From positions 62,001 through 126,000 of the forward strand of contig NZ_FQLR01000004.1 of assembly GCF_900119895.1 (NCBI RefSeq): a DNA stretch of 64,000 nt, in the 5' to 3' direction. How positions within the stretch are numbered: the stretch's first letter is position 1; every line of letters begins with the position of its first letter. The translations under genes and the position numbers were made by a program. Source of the stretch: Collinsella phocaeensis. GTDB taxonomy: Bacteria > Actinomycetota > Coriobacteriia > Coriobacteriales > Coriobacteriaceae. This document shows, piece by piece, positions 54,091 to 64,000 of this stretch. The notes beneath the pieces are model-generated. The model did not search any database, had not been told where the DNA came from, and saw only the letters and a list, made by a program, of their open reading frames with translations.

Positions 54091-54155
54091 TTTTAATACC
54101 AGTTGGTAAATCAAAAGGTATATCGAGTCAACAAGTAATCTGGTTACTACCAGTT
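54091..54155 (+). promoter_or_regulatory. AT-rich control region of the GH36-like gene
   Basis: Contains TACCAGTTGGTA at 54097-54108 (TACCA/TGGTA arms), GGTATATCGA at 54117-54126 and CTGGTTACTACCAG at 54140-54153. The last is the reverse complement of the site at 60647-60660, and GGTATATCGA is identical to 60565-60574, both upstream of the GH31 gene. These are likely binding sites of a shared regulator, 180-235 bases before the start codon. Confidence 0.65.
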
Positions 54156-54331
54156 GATGCCGTTTGTCGGAAAATCGCTACCGGTCACGGCACGCCGTCC
54201 GCCTTCTGCCGGGCTCTTCCCATATACCCACTATCCTTGGGTGGTTTGAAACGGAGGGCATATGCCGTGCGGCGCCGATCGCCGCACGGGGGATGGCTGC
54301 ATCGGCCCTCCGCGATCGAAAGGAGGTGCGG

Positions 54332-57300
54332 ATGAGAAGAGGAAGGCTCGCAGTGGCCGCGGCTGTCGCCATGGTCGGCGCGCTCGGATTCACGGCTCCC
54401 GTCTTCGCGGCGGGCTCCGGATACGGTGCGGTATCCGTGAAGCAGGACGCCGGAAGCGTCACTATCGGCAACAACGCATTGACTCGTACATTCAGCACTG
54501 CCGGGAAGAAACTGACGACGACCGAGATCAACAACGTGCTCGGCGGTTCCCGGTTCGTTCCGCAAGACGGTTCCGAGGAATTCTACATCGAGCAGCTTGT
54601 CGAGAGTTCGCGCGTGGAGCCGGGCGGCGCGCTCACCAGCGTGAGGCCCCAGGGAGCCTCCGTTGCGCCGAGTGCTACGGTTGAGGTCTCCTCCACGATG
54701 GATGAGTCCGGTAACAAGGCGGCAAACGCCATCGACGGCGACCCCTCGACGTATTGGTGCTCCGTCGACACCGCTGCCGACCAGTGGATCGTCATCGAGT
54801 TCGATGGCGAGAAGACGATCAAATCCTTCGAGTACACGCCGCGCGTGAGCAACGGCTCCTGGGACTGCACCGGTCGCATCAAGGCGTACGTCCTCGAGCG
54901 CAAGCAGGGCGACCAGTGGGTCGAGATCTCCCGGGGCGCGTTCGATCCTACCGGCACCACCGTGGTCGAGCTCAAGACCGAGGTGAAGGCCGCTGCGGTC
55001 CGTCTGCGCGCGACCGAGGCGTACCATTGGGACGCCGGAAAGGCGAACACAGCGATCAACGTCGCCGAGCTCGACGTCAAGGACGCCTCCGGCGCGAGCG
55101 TCCTTGCCTCCGCTCCTGCCGCCGGCTGGTCCATCTCGTCCACCTCCGTGCAGAACGGCGACGGCGGCGGAGCCGCCGCGCTGATCGACGGCAGCTTCGA
55201 GACCTACTTCCACTCGCGTTACAGCGAGAACGGTACGGGCAGTCAGGGCGAGATGCCCGTCGACATCACCATCGACCGCGGCGCGGGCGCCACGTCGTCC
55301 TTCCAGACGGTTGGCTACGCCGGCCGCAAGGGCAGCGCTACCTCGAACGGCAACGTCAAGAAGTTCGAGCTGTACGTGTCCAACAGCGAGGGAGACCTGT
55401 ACGAGGAGGCCAACAAGAAGGGCTCCTTCAAGGTCGACTACGTCGAGGCGTACGACGGCGCGACCCCCAAGATGATCTACTTCGGTCTCGATAAGGCGCA
55501 GACGGGCCGCTACGTGGGCTTCCGCGTCATCGAGGGGGCCAACGGTGCCTTTGCCGCCGGCTCCGAGATCGACCTCTACAAGGAGAAGTTCACCTCGGTT
55601 CCCGAGACCGACGCCAAGGGCCTCAAGGCCAGCGAGCTCGAGCTCGTCAAGACCGAGGTTTCCGACACCACCGAGCCCGCGGGCAAGATGATCACCTTCA
55701 CGTTCGCGCCCGCGCAGTTCGGCGGCGGCCAGGCCACCGTGGTGGAGAAGGTCGTCATGTACGACGGCGACCACTTCATGCGCAAGTTCTTGGAGGTCGA
55801 GCTCGAGGACAAGACCGCCCGCATCAACTTCATCGATGGCGAGCATCTCGTCACCGCGGAGGACGACACCACGTGGTCCGTGCCGAAGAAGTCCGGCGTC
55901 GTCGCCATGGACACCGCCAAGGCGACCCTCGGCCAGCCAATCTACGTGAACGGCCTGTTCGTAGGCTCCGAGTTCCCCGAGACCGACACCCAGATCGCGG
56001 ACGGCCTCGGCCGCACCCGCTACTGGACCGGCAAGAACTTCGAGGACTTCGAGCGCGATAACCAGCTCACCACCGATGGCAAGTACGTCTCCTGGCAGAC
56101 GGTCTGCGGCGCCACCCACTCCGACGGCTCCGACATGAACCTCGTCCAGAGCGACTTCTTCGCCTACATCACGAGCATCTCGAAGCCCAGCGAGTTCCGT
56201 ATCCAGTACAACTCCTGGTTCGACAACATGATGTTCATCGATGACGAGAACATCATCGAGTCCTTCCAGGCCGTGGACAAGCATCTGTCCGAGACGGGCG
56301 TGCGTCCGCTCGAGTCCTATGTTGTGGACGACGGCTGGAACCAGTATCGCAAGACCGAGAACCAGTACACCACCGGCGATGACCTGCGCCGCAACGGCTC
56401 GCTCGGCGGCGACCTGGGTATCAACACCACCGGTTTCTGGCAGTTCAACAACAAGTTCCCCAACGGCCTCACGCCGTCCTCCGAGCTGGTGAACAAGCTC
56501 GGCTCCAACTTCGGCGTGTGGATCGGCCCCCGCGGTGGTTACAACTACTACGGTAACCTCGCCTCCATCATCCAGGAAGCGGGCAAGGGCTCCTCTGCCG
56601 GCGGCTCCATCGACGTCGCCGACCAGCGCTACGTCGACAACTTCACCGACATGGCCGTGAAGTGGATGGAAGACTACGGCGTGAACTACTGGAAGTGGGA
56701 CGGCTTTGCCGACGGCGGCCAGTACGGCGACTTCGCCTCCGGCGAGGGCGTCGTGGGCTACGACGAGGACCACCAGCACATGTACGGTGGCCCCAACGGC
56801 TACTACCACGCCACCGACCTGTGGGAGAAGTGGATCGTCCTGTTCGAGCGCGTGTGGGAGACCGCCGACGCCGAGGACATCGAGGACCTCTGGATCTCGC
56901 TGACCTGCTACGTCAATCCCAGCCCCTGGTTCCTGCAGTGGTCCAACTCCGTGTGGATCCAGTGCGTCGCGGACCGCGGCGAGCGTTGGAACTCCGTCCT
57001 GAACAACAAGATGGACAACATGCTCACCTACCGCGACGGTTGCTACTACGATTTCGTCGAGCAGCATGAGTTCCAGTTCCCGCTGGCCAACCTCTACAAC
57101 CATGACCCGATCTACGGTAAAGAGGGCACCGGCATCACCTCGACGTCCATGAACGGCGAGCAGTTCCGCAACTACCTGTTCATGCAGGGCACCCGCGGCA
57201 CCGCCTTCTGGGAGCTCTACTACTCCGACTCGCTCTTCGACGAGGAGAAGTACCTCATCAACGCCGACTTCCTCGCATGGGAGGAAGAGAACTTCGACAT

Positions 57301-59758
57301 GCTTCGCAACGCGAAGATGATCGGCGGCAACCCCGATACCACCGCGACCCTTTCGGGTGGCGTGAGCCAGGCCGCCGGCACGCAGGATGCGTACGGCTTC
57401 GCCGGCTTCGACACCGACGGCACCGAGGGCATCATCTCGATGCGCAACCCGGCCGCCGAGACCAAGACCATCACCTTCAAGCTGGACGATGCCATCGGCG
57501 CTAAGGCCAAGGGCACCTGGTACAAGGCGATCGATCACTCCTACACCGCCAATGGTGACGCCATCGCCGAGTCTGACGACTCCTACGCCGCCGGTGCCGA
57601 GGTGACCGTGACCCTCAAGCCGGGCGAGGTCCAGATCTGGCACCTCACCCAGAAGGCCGACACGACCGCTCCCGAGCTGTCGAACATCTCCTTCGTGGAC
57701 GAGAGCACCGTTCGCGTCCAGACCTCCGAGCACGTCTCCGGCGCTGCCTTCGAGGTTACCGTGAACGGCGAGAAGGTCGAGCTGGGCGAGAGCGCTGTGA
57801 CCGCCTACGCCGACCTCAAGACCTTCGACATCGCGCTGCCCGAGGCTCTGGCCGACGACGCGACCGTCGAGGTCAAGGCGACCGCCGGTACCGACTCGGT
57901 GAACAACAGGCTCGCCGGTACCGTGAGCGCCCAGCACTACACCGACGGCGTTGTCGCGCAGGACGACGCCATCGCCGCGGGCACCGAGCTCTCCTCTGCC
58001 AAGCGCAGCGTCGAGGGTGCCAACGGCTTCACCGTCACCGCTACGGTTGACGGCGCCCTGAAGAACGCCACCGTTCTGTCCCAGGGCGACCAGTGGTCGC
58101 TGTCCGTGAACGCCGAGGGCAAGGCCGTCTTCACCGTTGCCGGCGTCTCCGCCGTGTCCGATGACGCGCTCGTCGAGGGCGACAACGTCATCACCGGTGT
58201 TCGCGAGAACAACGGTATGGTGAAGATCTACGTCGACGGCGAGATCGCCGGTTCCGACTATGACGCCGACACGGTTGGAAAGGCTATGGAGGCCGACGCC
58301 GTCGTGGCCGGCGTCGATGCCACCAACGTCGCCGTGTACGACAACTCGCTGGGCTACGACGAGGTTCCGGCCTCTCCGCTGGCCGAGCTCATCGCCAAGA
58401 TCGAGGCGGAGCAGGGCAACTTCACCGAGGAGTCCTGGACCGCTGCGAACATGGATGCCCTGCTCGAGGCCGGTAAGGCCGCGCTCGAGGGCGACGATGC
58501 CGCCGTGAAGCAGGAGGCTTACGACAACCTGCTCGACGCGCACGGCAAGCTGGTTCCCCGCACGGTGACCAACCTCGCCACCGGCGCGGACCTTTCCGCT
58601 GCCTGGGTCGACGGCACCACGGATACCCCGGTGACCAACAGCGGTCGCGCGCTCACCGTGGCAACCGATGGCAACATCGACACGAACAGCTACGCGATCT
58701 TCGGCAACGATGCCAAGGCCGACGGATCCTACATGCAGGTCGACCTCGGCGAGACGTGCCGCATCGACGCTGTGAACCTGTGGCGCTATTGGCAGGACGG
58801 CCGCACCTACAACGGCACCGCGCTCGTTGTGGCGAACAAGGCCGACTTCTCCGATGCCCAGGTGCTCTACTACTCTGGTGATCAGGACCTGTACGGTCTC
58901 GGTGAAAACGCGCTGACCGACGACGAGCTGTATGCCGAGTCCTCGAACGGCAAGGTCCTCTACGGCGACGCCGAGGGCGACCAGTCCGTCGCCGCGCGCT
59001 ACGTGCGTCTCTACGGTCACGGCGTGAAGAACGGCGGCAAGGAGAACCATGTCGTGGAGCTCCAGGTCATGGGCGCCCGCCTTTCCGCCGATCCGTACGA
59101 CCTGGCGGGCCTGAAGGCGCTTATCGCTCAGGCTGAGACAGCGCTGGAGAACAAGGACGACTACACAGCCGACTCCATCGAGGCGCTGAACGCCCCGCTG
59201 GCCGCTGCCAAGGAGGTCGTCGAGACCATCGAGGGCGGTGCGACCGACAAGCCCCTGAGCTACGTCATCAACGCTCGCGAGGCGCTGAAGGCCGCTATCG
59301 ACGCGCTCGAGCTCGTCGAGCCCGAGCCCCAGCCGGTCGAGTACACCGTGACGTTCGATTACGGTTACGAGGGCGCCGAGGCTGCGACTGTGAAGGTCCT
59401 CGAGGGCCAGAAGGTCGCCAAGCCCGCTGATCCCGTCCGTGATGGCTACACCTTCAAGGGCTGGATGCTCGACGGCAAGGCGTACGACTTCGATGCCGAG
59501 GTGACGGGCGACATCACCCTCATCGCGGCATGGGAGAAGGTCGTGGATCCGGATACCGATCCCGAGAATCCGGGCACCGACCCCGAGAACCCCAACAGCA
59601 AGCCTGGCGGCCAGGGCGGCAAGCCCAACGGCAAGCCCGGCTCCGACGACGCGCTCGCCAAGACCGGTGACGCCTCCATGGCGATCGCCGGCGGTGTGGC
59701 CGCGATGTCGGCGGTGTCGCTTGCCGGCGCCGCCGCCGTGCGCCGCCGCCGCAAGTAG
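54332..59758 (+). CDS. Cell-wall-anchored GH36-like glycosidase, probable alpha-N-acetylgalactosaminidase
   Basis: 1808-residue surface enzyme. Signal peptide about 1-31; first part of the GH36 N-terminal beta domain (about 35-100); two CBM32/F5-8C-type domains (about 118-250 and 263-420); rest of the N-domain (about 433-610); TIM barrel (about 623-973) with YVVDDGWNQ, NKFPNGL, GVWIGPRGGY and YWKWDG, where D790 is the likely nucleophile; C-terminal beta domain to about 1107. Then an Ig-like domain, a LamG-like domain, FIVAR (about 1350-1410), a third F5/8C (about 1414-1584), a second FIVAR, an InlB-type repeat, and the sorting signal LAKTG (1775-1779), helix and RRRRK. The barrel resembles GH36 alpha-GalNAcases from gut bacteria; alpha-galactosidase activity is the alternative. 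ATG 54332 follows AAAGGAGG. Confidence 0.85.
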   Translation: MRRGRLAVAAAVAMVGALGFTAPVFAAGSGYGAVSVKQDAGSVTIGNNALTRTFSTAGKKLTTTEINNVLGGSRFVPQDGSEEFYIEQLVESSRVEPGGALTSVRPQGASVAPSATVEVSSTMDESGNKAANAIDGDPSTYWCSVDTAADQWIVIEFDGEKTIKSFEYTPRVSNGSWDCTGRIKAYVLERKQGDQWVEISRGAFDPTGTTVVELKTEVKAAAVRLRATEAYHWDAGKANTAINVAELDVKDASGASVLASAPAAGWSISSTSVQNGDGGGAAALIDGSFETYFHSRYSENGTGSQGEMPVDITIDRGAGATSSFQTVGYAGRKGSATSNGNVKKFELYVSNSEGDLYEEANKKGSFKVDYVEAYDGATPKMIYFGLDKAQTGRYVGFRVIEGANGAFAAGSEIDLYKEKFTSVPETDAKGLKASELELVKTEVSDTTEPAGKMITFTFAPAQFGGGQATVVEKVVMYDGDHFMRKFLEVELEDKTARINFIDGEHLVTAEDDTTWSVPKKSGVVAMDTAKATLGQPIYVNGLFVGSEFPETDTQIADGLGRTRYWTGKNFEDFERDNQLTTDGKYVSWQTVCGATHSDGSDMNLVQSDFFAYITSISKPSEFRIQYNSWFDNMMFIDDENIIESFQAVDKHLSETGVRPLESYVVDDGWNQYRKTENQYTTGDDLRRNGSLGGDLGINTTGFWQFNNKFPNGLTPSSELVNKLGSNFGVWIGPRGGYNYYGNLASIIQEAGKGSSAGGSIDVADQRYVDNFTDMAVKWMEDYGVNYWKWDGFADGGQYGDFASGEGVVGYDEDHQHMYGGPNGYYHATDLWEKWIVLFERVWETADAEDIEDLWISLTCYVNPSPWFLQWSNSVWIQCVADRGERWNSVLNNKMDNMLTYRDGCYYDFVEQHEFQFPLANLYNHDPIYGKEGTGITSTSMNGEQFRNYLFMQGTRGTAFWELYYSDSLFDEEKYLINADFLAWEEENFDMLRNAKMIGGNPDTTATLSGGVSQAAGTQDAYGFAGFDTDGTEGIISMRNPAAETKTITFKLDDAIGAKAKGTWYKAIDHSYTANGDAIAESDDSYAAGAEVTVTLKPGEVQIWHLTQKADTTAPELSNISFVDESTVRVQTSEHVSGAAFEVTVNGEKVELGESAVTAYADLKTFDIALPEALADDATVEVKATAGTDSVNNRLAGTVSAQHYTDGVVAQDDAIAAGTELSSAKRSVEGANGFTVTATVDGALKNATVLSQGDQWSLSVNAEGKAVFTVAGVSAVSDDALVEGDNVITGVRENNGMVKIYVDGEIAGSDYDADTVGKAMEADAVVAGVDATNVAVYDNSLGYDEVPASPLAELIAKIEAEQGNFTEESWTAANMDALLEAGKAALEGDDAAVKQEAYDNLLDAHGKLVPRTVTNLATGADLSAAWVDGTTDTPVTNSGRALTVATDGNIDTNSYAIFGNDAKADGSYMQVDLGETCRIDAVNLWRYWQDGRTYNGTALVVANKADFSDAQVLYYSGDQDLYGLGENALTDDELYAESSNGKVLYGDAEGDQSVAARYVRLYGHGVKNGGKENHVVELQVMGARLSADPYDLAGLKALIAQAETALENKDDYTADSIEALNAPLAAAKEVVETIEGGATDKPLSYVINAREALKAAIDALELVEPEPQPVEYTVTFDYGYEGAEAATVKVLEGQKVAKPADPVRDGYTFKGWMLDGKAYDFDAEVTGDITLIAAWEKVVDPDTDPENPGTDPENPNSKPGGQGGKPNGKPGSDDALAKTGDASMAIAGGVAAMSAVSLAGAAAVRRRRK

Positions 59759-59813
59759 CGACGGAAGCTCGCGCGCGGCCGCGTGACGGTATGCGCGGTC
59801 GCGGGGCCCCGCG

Positions 59814-59837
59814 GCGGATGGGCGCTGAGCCATCCGC
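59814..59837 (+). terminator. Hairpin after the GH36-like gene
   Basis: GCGGATGG pairs with CCATCCGC around GCGCTGAG, 55 bases after the stop, without a T-run. It stands just before a second hairpin and may form a tandem terminator with it. Confidence 0.45.
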
Positions 59838-59869
59838 CCGGGATGCTCCCGGTGACAAACCGATCTGTA

Positions 59870-59900
59870 GGGAGGCGGGTGCCATGCGCTCGCCTCCCTT
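59870..59900 (+). terminator. Terminator-like hairpin
   Basis: GGGAGGCG / CGCCTCCC with a 13-base loop and a TTCGCC tail. The T-run is short. It would separate the GH36-like gene from the small membrane protein gene. Confidence 0.55.
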
Positions 59901-60125
59901 CGCCTGTTTGGCCGTCTGCGTCTGCGCCGTTCGCATGCGAATGCGCGGTTCGCGCGGCTCCGACCCCGTTGCTCGCCCGCCTGCCGCCCGCAGGCGCTCG
60001 GTCTCGGCCGGGCGCGTTTCGGCCGCCTGGCCGCCCGCGTTCGTCCCGCTGGCCGAATGGGGCGTGCGGGGCGCGCGCTTCCCGAGTAGCGTGGACGGGG
60101 TATCCATCGACCCGAAAGGCCCGAC

Positions 60126-60293
60126 ATGCCCCAAAGCACCGGTAACCCCTGGATGTTCATGATCATGATGGCCATCGCCGTCTTCCTCGGCGGAGGCGTC
60201 TACTGGCTGCGTCAGCGTCGCGAGCAGAAGCGTGCCGCGCAAGAGCGCGCCGCCTCGACCGCGCGCAAGAAGCGCCCGCACAAGAAGAAATAG
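60126..60293 (+). CDS. 55-residue membrane microprotein
   Basis: Short reading frame with a well-placed AAAGG seven bases before the ATG. The product starts MPQSTGNPWMFMIMMAIAVF, forms one hydrophobic helix (about 9-27) and has a long basic tail (REQKRAAQERAAS, ending KKRPHKKK). It therefore should insert with the tail in the cytoplasm. Codon use resembles neighbouring genes. I know no function; it could associate with a membrane complex such as the export machinery. It stands between the two glycosidase genes but has hairpins on its upstream side, so it need not belong with them. Confidence 0.65.
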   Translation: MPQSTGNPWMFMIMMAIAVFLGGGVYWLRQRREQKRAAQERAASTARKKRPHKKK

Positions 60294-60465
60294 CGAGGCC
60301 TCGGGCTCATCCCGATCGGCGTCCTCGCTGCGCGGCCGCATCGCTGCGCTCCACCCGTCGCCCTGCCCCCTGCCCGGACACGACAAGCAGACCAGTTCGC
60401 GCGATGTGAGCGCCCTGCCAGCGGCGCCTGCCGCCGACCGGCATGCAGGGCGTCACTGAAAAGTT

Positions 60466-60690
60466 GTATACCAACAATACCAGTATGAATATTGATCGAA
60501 AGGTGTAGACCAGTAAACCACCAGCTACTTGTATCAAATTGACGATACAAGTGTCTCGGTAAACGGTATATCGAAACCGTTCACCGTTTTCAGAATCTAA
60601 CCAAGCCGGTGAGCTAATAGGATTCCCCGTTCCATTGATCGGATTGCTGGTAGTAACCAGTTACATTCCGGCAATACCAGTGCGCCTGCG
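60466..60690 (+). promoter_or_regulatory. AT-rich control region of the GH31 gene
   Basis: Holds ATACCAACAATACCAG (about 60468-60483), GACCAGTAAACCACCAG (about 60508-60524), a perfect 9-bp inverted repeat ACTTGTATC/GATACAAGT (60527-60552), GGTATATCGA at 60565-60574, ACGGT/ACCGT words around it, and CTGGTAGTAACCAG at 60647-60660. The repeated ACCAG/CTGGT words and the exact GGTATATCGA are shared with the GH36-like gene's control region. Confidence 0.65.
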
Positions 60691-60729
60691 CGCACGTGCA
60701 CCAAGGGGGAAGAACCGAAAGGAGCTTGG

Positions 60730-63700
60730 ATGCATAAGAGTTCGATTCTGAGCCATCGCTGGATAGGGGGCACCGCGGTCGTGGCCGCGACGGCGCTCTC
60801 CATCGCCATCGCGGCACCGGCCGCCGCCGCCCCGCTCGCGGGCGTCGAGTCCGCCGCGGTGAACGCCGAGCGCAACTACGTCGTCGACGTGAACTTCGCC
60901 GACGGCATCAAGGGCAAGATCACGTTCCTCGAGGACGGCATCTTCCGCTACAACATCGATCCCTCCGGCGAGTTCTCCGCGTACGCCGCTCCGCGCGACG
61001 AGGCCCACACGGCCCGCATCCAGGCCCAGCCGGATGCTTCCAAGAAGTACGCCCATCCGCAGGCGAACGTGTCCGAGAAGGACGGAGCAATCGTCATCAC
61101 GGCCGGCACCACCACCATCTCCCTGGACAAGGCCACGGCGAAGATGACGGTCAAGTCCGGTGACAGCGTGGTCATGGAGGAGGCGGCCCCGGTCGATCTC
61201 TCCGACGGCTCCACCGTCCAGACGCTCGTGAAGCACGACGGCGAGGACTTCTTCGGCGGCGGCACCCAGAACGGCCGCTTCATCCACACCGGCAACTCGA
61301 TCAACATCAAGAACGAGAGCGGCTGGGTCGACGGTGGCGTCGCCTCCCCCAACCCGTTCTACTGGTCGAGCGCGGGCTACGGCGTCCTGCGCAACACGTT
61401 CGCCGACGGCGTGTACGACTTCGGCAAGACCGAGGGCGCCCAGGCGGTCGCCTCGCACGGTGAGAACGAGCTCGACGCCTACTACTTCGTCGCGGACGCC
61501 GCGAGCGGAAAGTCCACGGCGCCCATCGCCCAGGAGCTGCTGCAGGCTTACTTCAAGGTGACGGGCAATCCCGTCCTGCTGCCCGAGTACGCCTTCTACG
61601 TCGGCCACCTCAACGCGTGGAACCGCGACATGTGGTCGGCGGAGCAGAAGGACGGCTACGGCGCCTGGAACATCAAGGGCGGCACGCCTGCCGCCGAGAA
61701 CGGCGGGGAGACCAAGTACGAGAAGGGCGGCACGGGCACCTCGATGCAGGCCGGCTCGATCGTCGAGTCCCTCAACGGCCACGGCCCCACCGAGCAGACC
61801 GAGAACATCCCGGAGGGCGTGACCTTCTCCCGCGAGTTCTCCGCCCAGGACCGTCTCGACAGCTACCTCGAGAACGACATGCCGCTCGGCTACTTCCTGG
61901 CCAATGACGGCTACGGCGCCGGTTACGGGCAGAACGGCTTCGGCAAGACCGGCGGCGTGAACCCGGACGGCACGAGCTCGCCCGAGCGCCTGGCCGCGGT
62001 CGCCGCAAACGTCCAGAACCTCAAGGAGTTCACGGAGTACGCCAACAGCAAGGGCGTTGCCACGGGCCTGTGGACCCAGTCCTACCTGAGCCCCGACAGC
62101 AACCCCAACACGCAGTGGCAGCTGCTCCGCGACTTCTCCTCCGAGGTCAAGACCGGTGGCGTGACCACGCTGAAGACCGACGTCGCGTGGGTCGGCCCCG
62201 GCTACTCCATGGCGCTCGACGGCACCAAGACCGCGTACGACATCGTGACCGAGCAGGCCGGCTTCCGCCCCAACATCATCACCCTGGACGGCTGGGCGGG
62301 CACCCAGCGCTTCGGTGGCATCTGGACCGGCGACCAGACGGGCGGCAACTGGGAGTACATCCGCTTCCACATCCCCACGTTCATCGGCCAGTCGCTGTCC
62401 GGCAACCCCAACGTGGGCTCCGACAACGACGGCATCTTCGGCGGCCAGCCCGTCATCGCCACGCGCGACTACCAGTGGAAGTCCTTCGCCCCGCTCATGC
62501 TCGACATGGACGGATGGGGCAGCTACGTCAAGGCCCCGCAGACGCACGGCGACCCCTACACGGGCATCTCCCGCATGTACCTTAAGCTGAAGAGCCAGCT
62601 CATGCCGTACATCTACACCACCGCAGCCTCCGCCGCGAACATCGACACGGGCAACGGCGACGCCGGCATGCCCTTCGTCCGCGCGATCCTGCTGTCCGAC
62701 GACTCCGCGTACGCCGCCAGCACGGCAACGCAGTACGAGTACACGATGGGCGAGGACTTCCTGGTGGCCCCGATCTACCAGAACACCGACGGCGACGACG
62801 CCAACAAGGGCATCGGCGACGGCGACGACGTCCGCAACGGCATCTACCTGCCCGGCACCGAGAAGGACATCTGGATCGACTACTTCACCGGCGACCAGTA
62901 CCGTGGCGGCCAGGTCCTGAACAACTTCGAGGCTCCGCTCTGGAAGCTGCCGCTGTTCGTGCGCGCGAACGCCATCGTCCCCATGTACGAGCCCAACAAT
63001 AGTCCCGACCAGGTGGACCGCACGGTTCACAACGTCGAGTTCTTCGCCACGCAGGGCGACAACGAGTACACGCTCTACGAGGACGACGGCACCTACGTCG
63101 AGAACAAGATCGACGAGTCCGATGAGGAGTACGGCCGCGAGGCGACCATCTCCTACGGCTCCAACGTCAAGACGAAGTTCACCTCCAGCGCGAAGGGCGA
63201 TACCGCGACGTTCAAGGCGGGCAAGTCCGAAGGCGGCTACGACGGCTATGACAGCAATCGCAGCACCACCTTCGTGGTGAATGTCTCCGCGAAGCCCCAG
63301 GAGATCGTCGCGAAGAACGGCGACGAGCAGCTCAAGGTTACGACGGTGGCATCCCAGGAGGAGTTCGACGCCGCCAAGCCGGCAGCCGGCGAGGCCGTGT
63401 ACTTCTACAACGAGAAGCCGAACCTCAACTACAACGCCACGGCCGAGAGCGAGTCCGTGCGCAAGGAGGGCTTCTCCAGCACCGAGATCGTCACCAACCC
63501 CAAGGTGTACGTGAAGTTCGCCAAGGCGGACGTGAACGCCGTCGAGCAGACGCTTGAGGTCACCGGCTTCGCCAACGAGGGGGCGCTCTCGGGCACCGAG
63601 CTCGATACCAGCCTCAAGGCGCCGGCAAATCTCGCCGCGCCCGCGGACGGACTCACCCCGACGAGCATCAAGCTCACCTGGGATGCGGTCGCGGGCGCCG

Positions 63701-64000
63701 AGGGCTACGACATCGAGATCGACGGCATGCTGAACAGCATCCCGAGCGGGAAGACCGGCGAGTTCACCGTGACGGACCTCGCCTACAACTCCGAGCACGA
63801 GTTCAAGATCCGCACCCGCGGCGGTAAGGGCTACTCCGAGTGGAGCGCCCCTCTCAAGGTCAAGACCCTCGAGGACCCGTGGCGCAACGCGCCCGCGCCC
63901 GTCGACGTCGCCTGGGAGGGCGGCGAGCACTGGGGCGCGCTCAAGCTCGCGTTCGACCATGACGACAAGAGCGGCAGCGCGTTCCACTCCACCAACGGCG
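60730..64000 (+). CDS. Secreted GH31 glycosidase, probable alpha-N-acetylgalactosaminidase, 3' end cut by window edge
   Basis: 1090 residues are visible and the frame runs off the right edge. Signal peptide about 1-40 (WIGGTAVVAATALSIAIAAPAAA). GH31 N-domain with FFGGGTQNGRF, barrel from about 280 with PEYAFYVGHLNAWNRDMW, nucleophile D484 in LKTDVAWVGPGYS and acid/base D535 in WTGDQTGGNWEY, then GH31 C-terminal beta domains (DDGTYVEN) and a fibronectin type III domain (about 967-1050). The active-site surroundings resemble the GH31 branch with alpha-GalNAcase activity (as in Enterococcus faecalis) more than alpha-glucosidases. An anchor signal may lie beyond the window. ATG 60730 has AAAGGAG seven bases upstream. 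Confidence 0.88.
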   Translation, partial: MHKSSILSHRWIGGTAVVAATALSIAIAAPAAAAPLAGVESAAVNAERNYVVDVNFADGIKGKITFLEDGIFRYNIDPSGEFSAYAAPRDEAHTARIQAQPDASKKYAHPQANVSEKDGAIVITAGTTTISLDKATAKMTVKSGDSVVMEEAAPVDLSDGSTVQTLVKHDGEDFFGGGTQNGRFIHTGNSINIKNESGWVDGGVASPNPFYWSSAGYGVLRNTFADGVYDFGKTEGAQAVASHGENELDAYYFVADAASGKSTAPIAQELLQAYFKVTGNPVLLPEYAFYVGHLNAWNRDMWSAEQKDGYGAWNIKGGTPAAENGGETKYEKGGTGTSMQAGSIVESLNGHGPTEQTENIPEGVTFSREFSAQDRLDSYLENDMPLGYFLANDGYGAGYGQNGFGKTGGVNPDGTSSPERLAAVAANVQNLKEFTEYANSKGVATGLWTQSYLSPDSNPNTQWQLLRDFSSEVKTGGVTTLKTDVAWVGPGYSMALDGTKTAYDIVTEQAGFRPNIITLDGWAGTQRFGGIWTGDQTGGNWEYIRFHIPTFIGQSLSGNPNVGSDNDGIFGGQPVIATRDYQWKSFAPLMLDMDGWGSYVKAPQTHGDPYTGISRMYLKLKSQLMPYIYTTAASAANIDTGNGDAGMPFVRAILLSDDSAYAASTATQYEYTMGEDFLVAPIYQNTDGDDANKGIGDGDDVRNGIYLPGTEKDIWIDYFTGDQYRGGQVLNNFEAPLWKLPLFVRANAIVPMYEPNNSPDQVDRTVHNVEFFATQGDNEYTLYEDDGTYVENKIDESDEEYGREATISYGSNVKTKFTSSAKGDTATFKAGKSEGGYDGYDSNRSTTFVVNVSAKPQEIVAKNGDEQLKVTTVASQEEFDAAKPAAGEAVYFYNEKPNLNYNATAESESVRKEGFSSTEIVTNPKVYVKFAKADVNAVEQTLEVTGFANEGALSGTELDTSLKAPANLAAPADGLTPTSIKLTWDAVAGAEGYDIEIDGMLNSIPSGKTGEFTVTDLAYNSEHEFKIRTRGGKGYSEWSAPLKVKTLEDPWRNAPAPVDVAWEGGEHWGALKLAFDHDDKSGSAFHSTNG

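Follow-up and report, generated by a model that had tools for sequence, protein, structure and literature searches.

The idea of releasing alpha-linked N-acetylgalactosamine (alpha-GalNAc) with a pair of enzymes, one from each of the glycoside hydrolase families GH36 and GH31, is already known. In Hoskinsella mucinilytica (Erysipelotrichaceae), the GH31_18 enzyme UGRO018_00696 and the GH36 enzyme UGRO018_00697 have consecutive locus tags, and the GH36 enzyme freed GalNAc from Tn antigen, blood group A and mucin, with no activity on alpha-linked galactose (alpha-Gal) (PMC13096917, 2026). Akkermansia muciniphila Amuc_0216 (GH36) and Amuc_1008 (GH31_18) both act on alpha-GalNAc, including Tn (PMC11790493). 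Here we describe two genes of Collinsella phocaeensis in a 64,000-bp stretch of DNA (the window; bases 62001-126000 of contig C1 in a 2.1-Mb genome): gene A, which encodes a GH36-like, probably cell-wall-anchored glycosidase of 1808 amino acids (54332..59758, + strand), and gene B, which encodes a predicted alpha-GalNAcase of GH31_18 type of 1803 amino acids (60730..66141, + strand; window part to 64000). The main new result is a regulatory link: both genes share an operator with agaS, the signature gene of the GalNAc pathway (PMC5583593). It is very probable that genes A and B belong to a GalNAc-utilisation regulon, in which they form the outer arm that releases the sugar. Neither the Collinsella pair nor its tie to an aga regulon was found in the published literature that we searched.

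The locus resembles the Hoskinsella pair in having two large exported enzymes, one from each family, with CBM32, FIVAR and LPXTG modules. The Hoskinsella pair differs in belonging to another phylum, in having the GH31 gene before the GH36 gene, and in being reported as constitutive, with no link to a GalNAc regulon described. Akkermansia likewise has one enzyme per family, a likeness of family and activity; by contrast, its two locus tags are not adjacent and the organism is Gram-negative.

An exact 14-mer, CTGGTTACTACCAG, lies before gene A (operator O1, 54140..54153, no strand assigned), and its reverse complement, CTGGTAGTAACCAG, lies 70 bp before gene B (operator O2, 60647..60660, no strand assigned). 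The pattern CTGGTNNNNACCAG matched the window twice, against 0.02 matches expected in shuffled sequence, and both matches precede genes A and B. Across the whole genome we observed three exact copies of CTGGTTACTACCAG on either strand, and none of a control pattern; the third copy is 62 bp before agaS (L058:9673), such that every exact copy stands at a GalNAc gene. The agaS island encodes IIA (AgaF-like), IIC (AgaW-like) and IID (AgaE-like) components of a phosphotransferase system (PTS), a GntR/UTRA regulator, AgaS, NagA, LacC and a tagatose-bisphosphate-type aldolase. A copy with one mismatch, GTGGTTACAACCAG, is found 44 bp ahead of the gene for PTS IIA. The one-mismatch search of the genome was mostly noise (52 matches vs 28 for the control), and we retained the PTS-promoter copy alone, for its position.

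The closest described regulatory system is that of the Lactobacillales GntR/HutC regulator AgaR2, which binds TTGTGGTTATAACCAGTT in vitro, as measured by electrophoretic mobility shift assay, and controls agaS, agaA/agaY and bgaC (PMC4694137). The Collinsella operator CTGGTTACTACCAG is close to TTGTGGTTATAACCAGTT, and, as in an AgaR2-type regulon, an even palindrome is conserved before agaS and the transport genes. This likeness is between the binding sites, and the Collinsella regulon differs in that it would also cover two wall-anchored predicted alpha-GalNAcases. The GntR/UTRA regulator beside agaS (L058:8855-9586; PF00392 and PF07702) drew HutC-type NCBIfam matches, all below cut-off. We infer that this protein is the repressor acting on the 14-mer.

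We also looked at operators across the genus, using 19 GH31_18 genes located by a protein search that was blind to DNA signals. An exact CTGGTNNNNACCAG stood at 13 of the 19 promoters, rising to 16 when one mismatch was allowed, and operator-bearing GH31_18 genes were present in many genus members. The operators at these promoters often differed in their centre with the arms unchanged, as one would expect if the site is functional. An operator also precedes three gene-A orthologues, including those of genomes G001 and G033, and in G033 gene A and the GH31 gene lie far apart. In each of the 20 loci examined, the site stands before agaS, although these loci were picked for holding the site. The genus has further recurrent palindromes that match the operator in form but not in centre, CTGGTGTAGACCAG and CTGGTTGGGACCAG (G002, G003, G009, G017 and others); we take CTGGTGTAGACCAG to resemble NagR/DasR-type sites. 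One GH31_18 orthologue, L037 (G004:C18:35901-37997), has an in-frame TAG stop inside the matched region, and is likely a pseudogene or an assembly error.

The nearest solved structures to gene B are those of the E. faecalis GH31 alpha-GalNAcase, EfGH31 (6m76, 7f7q and 7f7r; 713 bits, E 7e-213), with a match spanning residues 37-1052. The next GH31 structures were alpha-glucosidases, at 81 bits (maltase-glucoamylase). By this closeness to alpha-GalNAcase over alpha-glucosidase GH31 enzymes, gene B is assigned to the GH31_18 type, a group reported to contain alpha-GalNAc-active members only (PMC13096917, PMC11790493). An earlier note on this DNA had named D484 and D535 as the catalytic pair, and both stand at the positions that it gave and align with EfGH31 catalytic motifs. 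D484, the predicted nucleophile (LKTDVAW; 62179..62181, + strand), aligns with EfGH31 LKTDVAWVG at the residue mutated in 7f7r, where the alignment places an Asn; D535, the predicted acid/base (WTGDQTGG; 62332..62334, + strand), aligns with EfGH31 WTGDQTGG. The likeness to EfGH31 is near full-length and includes FN3, but gene B has extra CBM32, cohesin-like and FIVAR modules. Beyond the window end at 64000, gene B encodes a CBM32, the cohesin-like domain, two FIVAR domains and an LAQTG anchor. The cohesin-like domain (residues ~1277-1382; PF00963, 27.7 bits, cut-off 24.1) is preceded by a dockerin-like DFNLNGAYDVYD motif. We considered a cohesin-dockerin (mucinolysome-like) complex for this domain and rejected it, as the genome gave no Dockerin_1 match.

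Pfam and NCBIfam alone left gene A unplaced, and a sequence search of the PDB with gene A matched mainly its CBM32. An AlphaFold model built from 16 homologues (pLDDT 79) has the architecture of the GH36/GH27 clan: an N-terminal beta-sandwich, a TIM barrel and a C-terminal beta domain. The model matched AgaA (4fnp) with a VIA Z of 20.9 over 576 residues (root-mean-square deviation 4.2), a GH27 alpha-galactosidase with Z ~21, and human alpha-N-acetylgalactosaminidase with Z 20.2 over the barrel. The top fold matches by E-value were GH36 alpha-galactosidases, with the Flavonifractor plautii GH36 enzyme FpGalNase (9ayu, 9awt) among the top. The GH36-like catalytic region (55601..57643, + strand) was delimited from a 16-member alignment and VIA Z of 20-21 to GH36/GH27; a profile of the catalytic region only reached GH36 alpha-galactosidases at E about 1e-3, no better. 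The model and motifs indicate that gene A is GH36 in fold and catalytic residues and distant from ordinary alpha-galactosidases in sequence. Because the sequence is far from both the alpha-galactosidases and FpGalNase, it is the fold and the catalytic residues, rather than a curated profile, that support strict membership of GH36.

The DDGW and KWDG motifs that the earlier note had reported in gene A were found as YVVDDGW (D722/D723) and YWKWDG; residue numbers here count from a TTG at the head of the open frame, and numbering from the ATG is lower by 56. D846 in YWKWDG (56699..56701, + strand), the predicted nucleophile, is invariant and aligns by profile with the KWD of LaMel36A (2xn0), a GH36 enzyme of L. 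acidophilus. D937 (56972..56974, + strand), 22 residues past C915, is invariant in the 16-member alignment, in which C915 is also strongly conserved. D937 is the predicted acid/base because the Cys-Asp arrangement is comparable with C513/D532 of FpGalNase, where mutating the residues of this layout, C513 or D532, abolishes activity (PMC11762096). Gene A thus resembles FpGalNase in overall fold and in its DD/KxD/Cys/Asp active-site layout; the two differ in that there is no detectable sequence similarity, and FpGalNase works on galactosamine (GalN) after deacetylation. The gene A product is predicted to hydrolyse alpha-GalNAc.

Gene A begins with a signal peptide, MRRGRLAVAAAVAMVGALGFTAPVFA (54332..54409, + strand), judged by eye from the sequence. 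Within the N-terminal beta-sandwich lies a first CBM32-like F5/8 type C domain (54683..55030, + strand; PF00754), followed by a second extending to ~55561 (two PF00754 stretches, 2.4e-29); in the model, these modules are inserted past the first strands of the sandwich. A fold search with the gene A CBM32 gave Z ~18 to CpGH89 CBM32-5, including the Tn-antigen complex 4a44, and the modules were most similar to Gal/Tn-binding CBM32s. The gene ends with an LAKTG sorting signal (59654..59668, + strand), a hydrophobic tail and RRRRK. Distant relatives of the catalytic domain (21-23% identity) occur in plasmid records H5 and H9-H12 (E. coli, Klebsiella, Paraburkholderia); they are annotated "enterotoxin" or Ast, yet look like GH36-type glycosidases, and the label is doubtful.

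We next consider how often the two families occur together. GH31_18 was present in all 7 genus members with the gene-A family, compared with 17/37 overall. Adjacent GH31/gene-A pairs were observed in G000 and G001, and in G022 with a 38-41% paralogue of gene A; in an Erysipelotrichaceae genome (L133), a GH31_18 gene (2340 amino acids) and a gene-A relative (1867 amino acids) are 95 bp apart. In a tree limited to the gene-A family, two well-supported clades each include GH31-adjacent members. Since the two paired kinds of gene A fall into these separate clades, the pairing is likely to have more than one origin. The earlier note had suggested, going by the family names, that the two enzymes may share alpha-GalNAc as a substrate. 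Four independent lines support this suggestion: it is backed by the gap between alpha-GalNAcase and alpha-glucosidase scores for gene B, by an exact operator common to genes A and B and the agaS promoter and to nothing else in the genome, by the co-occurrence in 7/7 genus members, and by the assayed alpha-GalNAc activity of the same two families in Hoskinsella (PMC13096917).

We propose that both enzymes are exported and fixed to the cell wall, where their CBM32 modules would hold host glycoproteins. For the GH31_18 enzyme, the alpha-GalNAc removed would probably be linked to peptide (Tn); for the GH36-like enzyme, it would be that of blood-group-A-type termini, of Tn or of both. The AgaF/W/E-like PTS would import the freed sugar as GalNAc 6-phosphate. 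The NagA/AgaA-like enzyme would take off the acetyl group, AgaS would deaminate and isomerise the product, and LacC would add a phosphate before the tagatose-bisphosphate aldolase cleaves the resulting sugar. All four promoters would be bound at CTGGTNNNNACCAG by the HutC-type GntR/UTRA regulator whose gene adjoins agaS, acting as a repressor that lets go when GalNAc is available; both its identity and its inducer are predictions.

Several observations weigh against this proposal. The hypergeometric P value for the co-occurrence of the two families in the genus, 0.0019, ignores kinship, and shared ancestry makes it optimistic. Outside the genus, a gene-A relative was present in seven distant genomes, and four of them lacked a strong GH31_18 match. 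Gene A scored below the Pfam Melibiase cut-off (14.7 vs 27 bits; 17.7 in the genome scan), such that the description "GH36-like" in the earlier note stands for fold and catalytic motifs and falls short for the Pfam profile. The gene A profile gave no FpGalNase sequence match at E<=10, leaving the family-level substrate without sequence support. The Hoskinsella GH31_18 enzyme cleaved only the p-nitrophenyl substrate pNP-alpha-GalNAc and was inactive on native Tn and blood group A (PMC13096917). Lastly, the ~40% paralogues of gene A have no operator, and G022 has both a gene A orthologue (70%, C22, alone) and the 38-41% paralogue next to GH31_18 (C10, L059), neither with an operator; this species possibly uses a different regulator.

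Gene A could instead be an alpha-galactosidase-type GH36 enzyme acting on blood group B, Galili or dietary alpha-galactosides, leaving gene B alone to release GalNAc. The E-value ranking of its fold matches and its weak Melibiase match are consistent with such an enzyme, as is the fact that most characterised GH36 enzymes are alpha-galactosidases (PMC13096917). However, the operator of gene A is common to agaS and gene B rather than to galactose genes, the S-R-N-Q stretch that precedes the nucleophile in alpha-galactosidases is replaced by S/A-G-G in gene A (profile alignment to 2xn0), and the published GH36 partner of GH31_18 had no alpha-Gal activity (PMC13096917). We consider an alpha-galactosidase unlikely. 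It is more unlikely still that gene A encodes an FpGalNase-sort galactosaminidase, for which a separate deacetylase outside the cell would first have to produce alpha-GalN. The fold search did rank FpGalNase among its top matches, and the Cys-Asp arrangement is similar, but the FpGalNase sequence was not matched, and we noticed no deacetylase gene adjoining the pair. NagA does not fill this role, being cytoplasmic and acting after phosphorylation.

The shared operator could also be the site of another amino-sugar regulator or of a global regulator, with nothing specific to GalNAc. HutC-type sites of different amino-sugar regulators resemble each other, and variants of CTGGTNNNNACCAG with other centres are present in the genus. 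Nevertheless, the genome has only three exact copies, one of them before the pathway's signature gene (PMC5583593), and operator placement is identical in about 20 relatives; we regard a non-specific site as very unlikely. Control of genes A and B within a GalNAc regulon remains the explanation that we favour.

The ABO locus has been repeatedly associated with Collinsella abundance, Collinsella aerofaciens grows on GalNAc, and GH109 was the sole candidate considered for freeing GalNAc from the A antigen (PMC10808065). The wall-anchored GH31_18 and GH36-like alpha-GalNAcases may be wired into the aga regulon as one GalNAc-sensing circuit, leading from surface cleavage of blood group A and Tn to tagatose-6-P catabolism, and may supply the release step so far lacking from the ABO-Collinsella association; we judge the chances of this to be evenly balanced, and the link of the enzymes to host blood group is itself an extrapolation. 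If the enzymes cleave GalNAc from the A antigen under control of a GalNAc regulator, the association would gain a concrete, testable molecular mechanism, and both A-to-O conversion and Tn processing would have two new surface enzymes worth attention.

The nearest relatives are Coriobacteriaceae/Collinsella, with the best homologues in SIG40, Collinsella sp. AK_207A and C. tanakaei. Gene A was assigned from its open reading frame, ribosome-binding site and start, Pfam, the model and the fold search, and gene B from sequence matches and domains. The open frame of gene A runs from a TTG (54164-59758), but the ATG at 54332 is the likely start because a good Shine-Dalgarno sequence, aaaggaggtgcggATG, lies directly before the signal peptide. 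Gene B begins at the ATG at 60730 and runs past the window end (L002:8730-14141). The earlier note's picture of giant GH36-like and GH31 genes in tandem, both exported, agrees with what we observed: a gap of 971 bp separates the genes, and both proteins have a signal peptide, CBM32-type modules, and a C-terminal LAxTG signal with a hydrophobic stretch and an arginine-rich tail. Given the LAKTG (A) and LAQTG (B) sorting signals, the products are probably anchored to the cell wall and not merely secreted. The 971-bp gap and the operator in front of each gene suggest that genes A and B are probably separate transcription units, and for these reasons a single operon was dropped.

The flanking genes are housekeeping genes, with carbamoyl-phosphate synthase upstream and purE, then a class-B-like sortase gene, downstream. 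The sortase domain is in a 609-amino-acid protein (L002:15161-16990) encoded right after purE, downstream of both LAxTG-anchored enzymes. Between the two glycosidase genes is a small open reading frame (60127-60294) of ~55 amino acids, with one hydrophobic stretch and a Lys/Arg-rich tail.

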